From Mycobacterium sp. (GTDB taxonomy: Bacteria; Actinomycetota; Actinomycetes; Mycobacteriales; Mycobacteriaceae), in NCBI GenBank assembly GCA_003987775.1, contig RXJD01000008.1:90830-154829 (forward strand): DNA of 64,000 bases, given 5' to 3'. Made by a program: the position numbers and the translations under genes. Of this stretch, positions 15,508 to 22,166 are shown one piece after another (the first letter of the stretch is position 1; each line of letters starts with the position of its first letter). Below the pieces are notes generated by a model. It saw only the letters and a program-made list of their open reading frames with translations. It ran no database searches and was not told the origin of the DNA.

Positions 15508-15996
15508 GTGGCCGCCGCCGCGACACCGGCTCTGGCGGCACTGGCCAAAGCCGGTGTGCCGCACCAGGTGGTGAAGTACGACCACGATTCCCGCGAACGC
15601 TCGTTCGGCACCGAAGCGGTGACCGCCCTCACCGAGTCCGAAGGCATTGCGGCAGAACAGATTTACAAGACGCTGATCATCGAGGTGACCGGTGGCCTGG
15701 CGGTGGCCATCGTGCCGGCGTCCGCGAAACTGTCGTTGAAAGCAGCAGCCGCAGCGCTGGGGGTCGGTAAAGCCGCCATGGCCGATCCCGCTGTCGCCGA
15801 ACGAACGACGGGCTATGTGCTGGGCGCGGTTTCGCCGTTCGGGCAGCGCAAGCGGTTGCGCACCGTGCTCGATTCCGGCGCGCTGTCGTGGACGACGATC
15901 TATTGCAGCGCGGGCCGCCGCGGTTGGGACGTGGCGGTGTCGCCGCAGGATCTGATCCGGCTGACCGGGGCGGTCACCGCGGCGCTCCAGGCGTAG
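15508..15996 (+). CDS. ybaK: YbaK/EbsC-type aminoacyl-tRNA deacylase
   Basis: 162 residues of the YbaK/ProX editing family, which hydrolyses mischarged tRNAs such as Cys-tRNA(Pro). Family features are KTLIIEVTG with the catalytic lysine, VPASAKLSLKAAAAALG, and GYVLGAVSPFGQRKRLRTVLD. GTG 15508 directly follows the SDR stop, so the two genes are coupled. In M. tuberculosis the corresponding region is annotated as two fragments (Rv3224A/B); here the frame is intact. Confidence 0.9.
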   Translation: MAAAATPALAALAKAGVPHQVVKYDHDSRERSFGTEAVTALTESEGIAAEQIYKTLIIEVTGGLAVAIVPASAKLSLKAAAAALGVGKAAMADPAVAERTTGYVLGAVSPFGQRKRLRTVLDSGALSWTTIYCSAGRRGWDVAVSPQDLIRLTGAVTAALQA

Positions 15997-16774
15997 CGGT
16001 CAGGAACTGCTCGATGACCGGCGCCAGTTCGGGCGCGTTGTGCACGACGTCGATGTGCCCGCCCGAGTGCAGGTGCAGACGCGAATGCGGCAGCAACCGA
16101 TGCATGATGTGCGCGTTGACCACCGGGATGATCGGATCGTCGGTGCCCGCCACGATCAGCGTCTGCTGACGCACCGCGCGCAGGGCGAACAGGCTGGTCC
16201 AGACGGAGCCGGCGAGCAGCTGGTGCAGGTAGCCGACCTTTGATCCGGCATGCACCTGTCTGAGGAAGAGCCGTGCGACGTCCTCGCCGTGGGTGCGGAC
16301 CGTTCCGCCGTACAGCTCGCCGGCGATGAGCCCGGCGTAGCTGGGATCCGAGAAACGGCGCGGGGTAACCATTTTCGCGAGCACCCGCGGGTGTGCCGGC
16401 ACCATCAGCGCGCCCGTCCCGGTCGCCACCAGTACCAGCCGCCGGCACCGGCGCGGATTCTGGAACGCGAACTGCTGCGCCAGGGCACCGCCCCAGGACA
16501 GCCCGAGAACGTCCACCACCCCTATGCCCAGCTTCGTCAGCACCCGGCCCAGCACCCAGGAAAGATAGGGGAAGCCGTAGGGCAGCGGCGATGTCGGCGA
16601 GCCGCCGGTGCCCGGGACATCGAATCTGACCACCGGGCAACTCAATTGATCCACTAGCGGGTCGAGCACTTCGAGGCTGGCGCCGATACCGTTGCACAGC
16701 ACCAGCGGAACTCCGGTTCCGGGCCGAACCTCGACCCGGATCCGCTGACCGCCTGCGGTGACGTAGTGGCTCAT
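15974..16774 (-). CDS. phaZ: Polyhydroxyalkanoate depolymerase PhaZ (intracellular, medium-chain type)
   Basis: 266-residue alpha/beta hydrolase that closely follows Pseudomonas PhaZ: NGIGASLEVLDPL, FDVPGTGGS, the nucleophile motif GLSWGGALAQQFA (Ser93), VPAHPRVLAKMVTPRRF, then AGTDDPIIP (acid) and SGGHIDV (His). It should release 3-hydroxyacids from stored mcl-PHA. Its ATG overlaps the phaC stop (16771-16774), and it is last in the fadD-phaC-phaZ operon. The 3' end overlaps the convergent ybaK-type gene by 23 bp. Confidence 0.85.
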   Translation of the reverse strand: MSHYVTAGGQRIRVEVRPGTGVPLVLCNGIGASLEVLDPLVDQLSCPVVRFDVPGTGGSPTSPLPYGFPYLSWVLGRVLTKLGIGVVDVLGLSWGGALAQQFAFQNPRRCRRLVLVATGTGALMVPAHPRVLAKMVTPRRFSDPSYAGLIAGELYGGTVRTHGEDVARLFLRQVHAGSKVGYLHQLLAGSVWTSLFALRAVRQQTLIVAGTDDPIIPVVNAHIMHRLLPHSRLHLHSGGHIDVVHNAPELAPVIEQFLTATPGAPR

Positions 16775-20105: not shown

Positions 20106-21296
20106 ATGGCCGTCGGCACCACGGTTGACCCGCACGTCATCGAACTCGGCAGGCTCATGCTGGCCCGCGCCCCGAGTTTGGGTGAAGCCATGGCCGAACA
20201 GCTGTGCCGCGAGATCGACGCGTACAGCGACGGGACCGTCGTGACGAAAGACGAAGTACGCGAAAGCTGCGTCGCGAACCTGACATTCATCTTCGACTCG
20301 CTCGCTGATGATTCCGACGCCGATGCGGACGTAGCGCCCGCCGAGCGCACCGGCACCGCGCGGGCGATCAGCGGTGTGCCATTGCCGGCGGTGATGACCG
20401 CCTACCGCATCGGCTTTCGCTTCATGTGGGAGCAGACCCTCGCCGTGGCACGCGCGGCGGCAATACCCACCGACTCGATCCTCAATGCCACCTCCCGGGT
20501 CTTCTTCGCGCAGGAGAGGTTCACGCAGGCGATGAGCGACGCCTACCGCCAACAACTGACGGTGCAGATCCTGGAACGGGAAGAAGAAAGATCGGCAGTG
20601 GTGGAGGCGTTGCTGACGCGCCGGATGACCGACCGGCAGAGTCTGTGGGAGGCCGCGGACCTGTTACGGCTGCCCACCTCGGGCCCCTACGTGGTGGTGG
20701 CCGCGGTGCTACCCGCGATCGGCAAACTGGGTCTGCCGGCCATCGAGAACAAGCTGTCCGCCCGTGACATCCGGTCGGCCTGGCGACTGCTGCCCGAGCT
20801 TCAGGTCGGCATCGTCCATGTGCGGGAACCGGCCCACACCCTCGACGCTCTTGTCGAGGTGCTCCGGCAGGCCGCCAAAGCACGGGTGGGAATCAGTCCG
20901 CCGTTCCACGAACTGCCCGAGACCGCTGACGCGTTGCGCTACGCGCGGCTCGCGGCGGGGGGCAACTCGCCGGAACTGGTCACCGTTTTCGATGACACAC
21001 CGCTCGCCCTCGCAGCGGTCAGCGCGCCCGAGGTCATGACGCGGATCAGATCGTCGGTGCTGGGACGCCTGGACGCCATGCCAGCCGAGGAACGAGCAGT
21101 CCTGATCGATACCTTCCGGGCGTGGCTGGATGTCGGCGGCTCGGCGAATGACACTGCGGCGCAGATCTATTGCCATCCGAACACGGTGCGGCACCGGCTG
21201 CGCCGCATCGAGGAGCTGACCGGCAGGACACTCACACGTCCCAGGGACGTCGCAGAACTCTGTCTCGCGTTCGAAGTTGAGCAGCGGCTGGATTGA
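20106..21296 (+). CDS. PucR/CdaR-family transcriptional regulator
   Basis: 396 residues: an N-terminal helical domain resembling RsbRD (1-165), a central degenerate GGDEF-like region, and a C-terminal PucR helix-turn-helix (GSANDTAAQIYCHPNTVRHRLRRIEELTG, near 345-375). ATG 20106 is supported by TACAGT six bases upstream. It is divergent from the fadD-phaC-phaZ operon by 132 bp, the usual layout for a local regulator, so control of PHA genes is a reasonable inference. The effector is unknown. Its stop abuts the convergent dehydrogenase gene. Confidence 0.85.
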   Translation: MAVGTTVDPHVIELGRLMLARAPSLGEAMAEQLCREIDAYSDGTVVTKDEVRESCVANLTFIFDSLADDSDADADVAPAERTGTARAISGVPLPAVMTAYRIGFRFMWEQTLAVARAAAIPTDSILNATSRVFFAQERFTQAMSDAYRQQLTVQILEREEERSAVVEALLTRRMTDRQSLWEAADLLRLPTSGPYVVVAAVLPAIGKLGLPAIENKLSARDIRSAWRLLPELQVGIVHVREPAHTLDALVEVLRQAAKARVGISPPFHELPETADALRYARLAAGGNSPELVTVFDDTPLALAAVSAPEVMTRIRSSVLGRLDAMPAEERAVLIDTFRAWLDVGGSANDTAAQIYCHPNTVRHRLRRIEELTGRTLTRPRDVAELCLAFEVEQRLD

Positions 21297-22166
21297 CTAC
21301 CGGTAGTTGTAGAACCCCTCGCCCGTCTTGACCCCGAGCTTGCCCGCGTCTACGTACGAGTGCAGCAGGTCGCGCACGTTCTCGGGTAGATGCGGAAACT
21401 CCTGCGCGTAGTTGTTCTCGATGTCGAGCACCACGTCCAGGCCGACCAGGTCCATCATCTGGAACGGCCCTACCGGGAAGCCAAAGTTGACCTTCCAAAT
21501 GCCGTCGACGTCTTCGGGACGGGCGACACCCTCGGCCACGACGGCGACGCACTCGCGCTTGATAGCGGCCCATACCCGGTTGAAGATAAACCCGGTGCAC
21601 TCCTTGCGAGCTTCGAAAGGATGCACTCCGAATTCGGGAAGCACGGCCAGCAACGTGTCGAGCAGACCACGGTCGGTCTGGCCGTTCGACATCAGTTCCA
21701 GCGCGTTGAACTGGGGCGGCATATTGAAGTGCATGTTGCACAGCCGTGTTTTGTCGCGGACGTTTTCGGCCATCAGCCGCGACGGGAACGACGACGAGTT
21801 GGTGGCGAAGATGGTGTCCGGCGGCGCGGCTGCGTCGATCTCGCCCCAGAGCGGAATCTTGATGTCCAACCGCTCGGGCACCGACTCGATGGCCAGCCAG
21901 GCACCGTCCAGCGCCTCCTGCAGCGTCGCGGCGCCGACGACGGCGCCCGGCTCTCCAAAACCTCGGTCTTGCAGGAGCTTCGGCAGATTGTCGGTGACGT
22001 ACCCGACTGCCTCGGCCCGCTGTTCGGGACGGCGTGCGTAGATCCGCACCGTGCCCCCGCGGCTGGCCATCATCAATGCGATGCGGCGTCCCAACGTGCC
22101 GGCGCCGATCACCGCGACGGGCCGGTCCTGGATTTCTTCGAACGTGTGGGTGTACTTGCCGGTCAC
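21297..22166 (-). CDS. 3-hydroxyacyl-CoA dehydrogenase
   Basis: 289 residues. The N-terminal Rossmann domain has GAGTLGR (about 21-27) for NAD; catalytic His is in MHFNMPPQF, and the C-terminal helical domain shows the family pattern ([40 protein letters not shown]). It oxidises (S)-3-hydroxyacyl-CoA in beta-oxidation. It is convergent with the PucR-type regulator and divergent from the P450. It might link PHA-derived hydroxyacyl units to beta-oxidation, though an epimerase or hydratase would also be needed and none is visible here. Confidence 0.88.

Follow-up and report, generated by a model that had tools for sequence, protein, structure and literature searches.

A putative polyhydroxyalkanoate turnover operon, fadD-phaC-phaZ, probably of short-chain type, in a mycobacterium related to Mycobacterium gordonae

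The genome of a mycobacterium that is related to M. gordonae carries, within the 64-kb stretch of contig RXJD01000008.1 analysed here (the window), adjoining genes for an acyl-coenzyme A (CoA) ligase (fadD), a polyhydroxyalkanoate (PHA) synthase (phaC) and an intracellular PHA depolymerase (phaZ), with a divergent gene for a PucR-family regulator (pucR). That this is a gene set for building and recycling PHA is well supported by the data below, and we favour, with moderate confidence, its reading as a vertically inherited turnover operon of the Mycobacteriales, most likely for a short-chain (C4/C5) polyester or a short-to-C6 mixture. In the cycle predicted from sequence, PhaC would polymerize (R)-3-hydroxyacyl-CoA, most likely the 3-hydroxybutyrate (3HB) and 3-hydroxyvalerate (3HV) units of such a polymer or the mixture up to C6, PhaZ would hydrolyse the polymer to free 3-hydroxy acids, and FadD would close the cycle by converting these acids, or others, to CoA esters again. 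PucR would set expression via a shared intergenic palindrome, and the supply of (R)-hydroxyacyl-CoA, for which related operons carry a MaoC-type hydratase that is absent here, could fall to an unlinked hydratase of the Rv0130 type. The features of the set, in window coordinates, are:

15974..16774, minus strand: phaZ, intracellular PHA depolymerase (TIGR02240-like), 266 amino acids, Ser93 in GLSWGG
16771..18459, minus strand: phaC, PHA synthase of an actinobacterial clade, 562 amino acids, Cys297/Asp453/His482, lipase box ATCSG
18462..19973, minus strand: fadD, acyl-CoA ligase, 503 amino acids, substrate not assignable by models
19974..20105: fadD/pucR divergent control region, 132 bp
20073..20086: TGTG-N6-CACA palindrome, candidate operator, from an alignment of intergenic regions
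20106..21296, plus strand: pucR, PucR-family regulator (HTH_30 and GGDEF-like domains), 396 amino acids, divergent from fadD

Pfam and NCBIfam assign the families of the window proteins concordantly. The gap between fadD and phaC is 2 bp; phaC shares 4 bp (16771-16774) with phaZ. The original prediction, made from the sequence of this stretch, had described three minus-strand genes with this order, these junctions and intact catalytic residues, all borne out by the open reading frames and a residue check: the Cys-Asp-His triad of PhaC (C297, D453 and H482) is intact, and PhaZ keeps its Ser lipase box. The divergent PucR-type regulator it described is also there, with pucR (+) and fadD (-) facing away from each other across the 132 bp. 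It made no mention of the PhaC lipase box, which reads A-T-C-S-G rather than G-x-C-x-G, with Ala in place of Gly.

The same prediction had labelled PhaC a class II, medium-chain synthase, and this label is weak, its medium-chain part being unsupported. Against the NCBIfam models for class II (TIGR01839) and class I (TIGR01838) the window PhaC scores 547.2 and 455.4 bits and reaches neither cut-off (855.4 and 622.65), while a Pseudomonas plasmid enzyme used as a class II control, from P. mandelii, passes the class II cut-off with 1016.2 bits. At the positions equivalent to 325, 481 and 484, of which S325 and Q481 come from PMC3815930 and L484 from PMC4636328, PhaC has the class-I-like residues T/A/V, where the P. 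mandelii enzyme has S/Q/L. These are nearly invariant (T in 87/87, A in 85/87 and V in 87/87) among distinct sequences that share 63% or more identity with the window PhaC, a set from which hits below 120 bits and 12 hits giving proteins shorter than 480 amino acids were excluded and in which near-identical sequences from two collections remain. Of the two tunnel positions that PMC6403647 gives for class II (His and Phe), the window PhaC, read by eye, has His at the first and neither Tyr nor Phe at the second. Rhodococcus jostii RHA1, whose synthases are compared with the window PhaC below, makes a polymer of 3HB and 3HV, at 2.2-7.6% on four substrates with traces on hexadecane, and the table of monomers holds 3HB and 3HV only (PMC2667194). 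The PhaC2 of Cupriavidus pinatubonensis, class II by phylogeny, polymerizes 3-hydroxybutyryl-CoA and not 3-hydroxyoctanoyl-CoA (PMC4636328). Because of the missed class II cut-off, the T/A/V residues, the RHA1 polymer and this short-chain PhaC2, a short-chain or mixed polymer is favoured for the window PhaC, although not firmly, and the product is more likely a short-chain than a medium-chain polyester. A synthase that groups with class II by sequence does not necessarily make a medium-chain polymer, which calls for caution in annotation.

Across 297 genomes of the genus, a PhaC_N match is present in 64 and lacking in 233. PhaZ occurs in 53, all but one of which also encode a PhaC_N protein (52 with both, one with PhaZ alone and 12 with PhaC_N alone). 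Of the 78 places in the genus with a PhaC_N match, 75 loci were fetched, all but the window's own and two fragments at contig ends, and 51 of these pass a line, drawn by us, of at least 63% PhaC identity to the window. In this set fadD adjoins phaC in 46 loci, and the gene order is therefore more than chance; a divergent pucR lies beside fadD in 35. The genus-wide look for fadD-phaC-phaZ that had been proposed earlier finds this order, without MaoC, in 40 of the 51. Of the claim that the strain can build and recycle medium-chain PHA, the presence of a build-and-recycle gene set is well supported, by the genus-wide order and by the 52 of 53 PhaZ genomes with PhaC_N, and the chain length is not. 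Named carriers include M. gordonae, M. gastri, M. persicum, M. innocens, M. attenuatum, M. ostraviense, M. scrofulaceum, M. interjectum, M. bohemicum and M. vulneris; PhaC is 94% and 84% identical to that of the window in two M. gordonae records, and the closest sequence (97%) is from another genome. Neither M. tuberculosis nor M. smegmatis occurs in the record titles of the 79 loci of a scan that used short exact peptides (best 80 of 161), which makes this negative weak evidence. A second PhaC type (44-45% identical) together with two tandem PhaZ genes was seen in five genomes, numbered here G073 (C1:1378809-1394754), G015, G090, G157 and G202; the tandem pair lies ~13-14 kb from the second phaC in G073 and G202 and on other contigs in G015, G090 and G157.

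Most operons of other genera differ from the window in a predicted gene for monomer supply. There, 121 places had a PhaC_N match, 60 loci were fetched so as to span genera and 24 pass the 63% line; of these 24, 18 carry a MaoC gene after phaC and before phaZ, compared with 5 of the 51 genus loci. The window has no MaoC between its overlapping phaC and phaZ, and a MaoC search of its genome gave no match on its contig. The earlier statement that no PhaJ is present is hence true of the window, with the addition that related operons carry MaoC between phaC and phaZ. Among 46 rows of the tree described below, the MaoC state changes at least 8 times, a count that does not give the direction. The best solved relative of one operon MaoC is M. 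tuberculosis Rv0130 (2c2i). When the window's genome was searched with operon MaoC, two MaoC proteins with 55% and 44% identity turned up on other contigs, the former aligning with Rv0130 over residues 1-150 of 151. From work on Rv0130 this first protein would be (R)-specific, and, although unlinked, it could replace the missing operon MaoC as monomer supplier.

The comparison with R. jostii RHA1 (phaC1Z1, phaC2Z2 and phaC3Z3) runs through genome G509, which has three PhaC_N matches of 568, 565 and 565 amino acids, with G, G and A lipase boxes, and a 323-amino acid PhaZ with GYSWG; the PhaC lengths and boxes and the PhaZ length match the RHA1 table (PMC2667194). The RHA1 synthases appear to belong to the clade of the window PhaC (65-72% identity), PhaC3 shares its Ala lipase box (PMC2667194), and the accompanying PhaZ is of the P. 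putida type. As in the window, fadD adjoins phaC at two of the G509 loci and a divergent pucR is present at one. Unlike the window, these loci hold maoC between phaC and phaZ, in one case intact, in one frameshifted with its tail in frame into phaZ and in one as a fragment. The frameshifted and fragmentary copies point to loss rather than gain, which suggests that the operon maoC decayed. The 323-amino acid PhaZ1 frame (G509 L151:8027-8998) starts within the frameshifted maoC tail, and because of this the extra ~50 residues of RHA1 PhaZ1, a signal peptide in PMC2667194, are probably a MaoC remnant instead. A 150-amino acid MaoC lies between phaC and phaZ at G509 L310:4976-5428, where gene numbers place ro03777, a small coding sequence weighed as a possible phasin in the RHA1 paper (PMC2667194).

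Other known systems share less with the window. On the Tsukamurella tyrosinosolvens plasmid NZ_LR134469.1, pucR, fadD, phaC and phaZ are clustered, and the last three are 65-71% identical to their window counterparts; the order there is fadD-phaC-MaoC-phaZ, with the MaoC that the window lacks, and the regulator gene, transcribed in the same direction as fadD, encodes a protein with only 42% identity to the window PucR. The phaC1-phaZ-phaC2 cluster of Pseudomonas is not known to include a ligase gene. This class II cluster has in common with the window a single-subunit synthase and a PhaZ of the same family, but two synthases flank its phaZ (PMC4636328) where the window has one. In C. pinatubonensis JMP134, the five-gene phaC2 cluster combines the class II-grouped, short-chain synthase with a clustered PhaZ, as in the window, and also holds MaoC, fadE and a phasin gene; neither fadD nor PucR is named in it (PMC4636328). 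Two look-alike Cupriavidus PhaCs (L247 and L321), which stand in for JMP134, are ~40-42% identical to the window PhaC and have Ile at the 484 equivalent. In a Phyllobacterium plasmid (L280:2102-6786), an acetoacetate-CoA ligase takes the place of fadD before phaC and phaZ.

Descent was approached with a quick PhaC tree of 121 rows, supported by SH-aLRT (Shimodaira-Hasegawa-like approximate likelihood ratio test) values only and leaving out P. mandelii, other Pseudomonas class II rows and two later G509 rows. The window PhaC falls among the mycobacteria in a 36-row set (SH-aLRT 99) that also holds Tsukamurella, Gordonia, Antrihabitans and relatives, apart from the sole row annotated as class I (L281) and two Cupriavidus megaplasmid rows (L139 and L282). 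Since it nests among Mycobacteriales synthases, a recent transfer from Pseudomonas is not indicated by this tree. A P. silesiensis plasmid fetched as a class II reference gave a PhaZ match only.

Remnants were found where phaC is missing. Of 23 phaC-free loci, taken from genomes with a close match to the left-flanking oxidoreductase and including two cut by contig ends, one (G031, L296:3432-4018) has pieces of phaZ and pucR after ybaK and no match to fadD or phaC, and three (G007, G107 and G112) keep fadD without phaC and phaZ at the site. The fragments and the lone fadD genes together support repeated loss of the operon within the genus. The phaC of Mycobacterium sp. ACS4054 (L070 and L237) is broken into two reading frames. 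A more speculative picture, possible but doubtful in our view, starts from a short-chain polyester cycle in the ancestors of the Mycobacteriales, perhaps one that took up propionyl-CoA into a 3HV-rich polymer: it would first have shed its own (R)-hydratase and relied on an enzyme of the Rv0130 type, would then have been lost from most of the genus, and would persist in some mycobacteria.

For regulation, both PucR domains exceed their cut-offs (HTH_30 74.5 bits vs 27; GGDEF-like 42.4 vs 24.5). Of 47 distinct intergenic regions between fadD and pucR, from mycobacterial and related loci, 33 contain the motif TGTG-N6-CACA; it occurs in 0.3% of mononucleotide shuffles, and its sole match within the window is at 20073-20086. 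As the palindrome was chosen from the alignment after inspection and the 47 sequences share ancestry, it is a candidate operator only.

The role of FadD is less exclusive. Among proteins of solved structure, its nearest matches are malonyl-CoA synthetases, a fatty-acyl/feruloyl-CoA synthetase, FadD13 and an oxalate-CoA ligase. Orthologs (at least 68% identity) occur in 52 of the 65 genomes with a FadD match; nine FadD genomes lack PhaC_N, of which one (G058, 540 contigs) has PhaZ. The dedicated role that the earlier proposal gives FadD, re-activation of the acids released by PhaZ, is uncertain, as the eight remaining genomes keep FadD with neither phaC nor phaZ, and the enzyme may have another task besides the PHA cycle.

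These eight of 297 genomes are one of several points that weigh against a short-chain turnover operon. Others of these points would fit a true medium-chain-length cycle of the Pseudomonas kind, fed from fatty-acid beta-oxidation, which we regard as unlikely. NCBIfam ranks class II over class I for the window PhaC (547 vs 455 bits). PMC6403647 assigns a His to class II, and the segments read by eye contain it. PhaZ falls in the depolymerase family of the P. putida type, with 238.8 bits on TIGR02240 (240.4 in a second search) vs 38.7 on the short-chain family NF050089; it stays below the TIGR02240 cut-off of 250.6, which is passed in 29 of the 53 genus genomes with a PhaZ match. The top NCBIfam model for FadD is a long-chain-fatty-acid ligase, just short of its cut-off (475.7 vs 476 bits), and the MaoC proteins of the window's own genome could supply longer monomers. 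The class II cut-off that P. mandelii clears, the T/A/V residues, the mere traces of polymer in RHA1 on hexadecane and the short-chain PhaC2 of C. pinatubonensis all speak against medium chains. The RHA1 argument itself has limits: we infer that G509 is RHA1, and the RHA1 polymer is not traced to one synthase.

That polymer is made at all is likewise a prediction, and the operon might instead be cryptic or on its way out, yielding little or no polymer while FadD serves another acid. The G031 fragments, the lone fadD genes, the split phaC and the many genus genomes with no PhaC_N match are what such decay would leave; the window's own reading frames and catalytic residues are intact, however, and the three genes keep their order at 40 of 51 loci, so that we consider this improbable. 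Also unfavourable to a polymer-making operon, the Mycobacteriaceae are stated not to produce PHA naturally, and plasmid-free M. smegmatis is listed with no PHA detected (PMC5311400). The phasin families PF09361 and PF05597 gave nothing over cut-off in the window's genome, in searches that are poor tests because they gave only weak signals in 9 and 11 of 14 control genomes. Poly(3-hydroxybutyrate) from M. smegmatis is reported in a 2026 paper (PMC13046884).

This kind of PHA system is known; the conserved ligase-synthase-depolymerase arrangement was not noticed as described for mycobacteria in the open-licence literature searched, which is not proof of its absence from print. Because a conserved build-and-recycle operon occurs in many mycobacteria, the question of mycobacterial PHA becomes testable in named species such as M. 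gordonae, M. gastri and M. interjectum, and the Rv0130-type hydratase can be named as a candidate for the enzyme that supplies the monomers.

The operon is flanked by three further genes:

14658..15506, plus strand: SDR (short-chain dehydrogenase/reductase) oxidoreductase, conserved left flank, outside the PHA set
15514..15996 (start approximate), plus strand: YbaK-type tRNA deacylase of the conserved left flank; its 3' end overlaps phaZ
21297..22166, minus strand: 3-hydroxyacyl-CoA dehydrogenase, convergent with pucR, loosely associated

The dehydrogenase, said earlier to follow the regulator, does adjoin pucR but is convergent with it, tail to tail with abutting stop codons, and is not downstream in the operon; it is present at 5 of the 23 phaC-free loci, and its inclusion as a PHA gene is unsupported. 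Of 118 genus genomes, 108 hold a counterpart of the SDR oxidoreductase that matches at E <= 1e-100.

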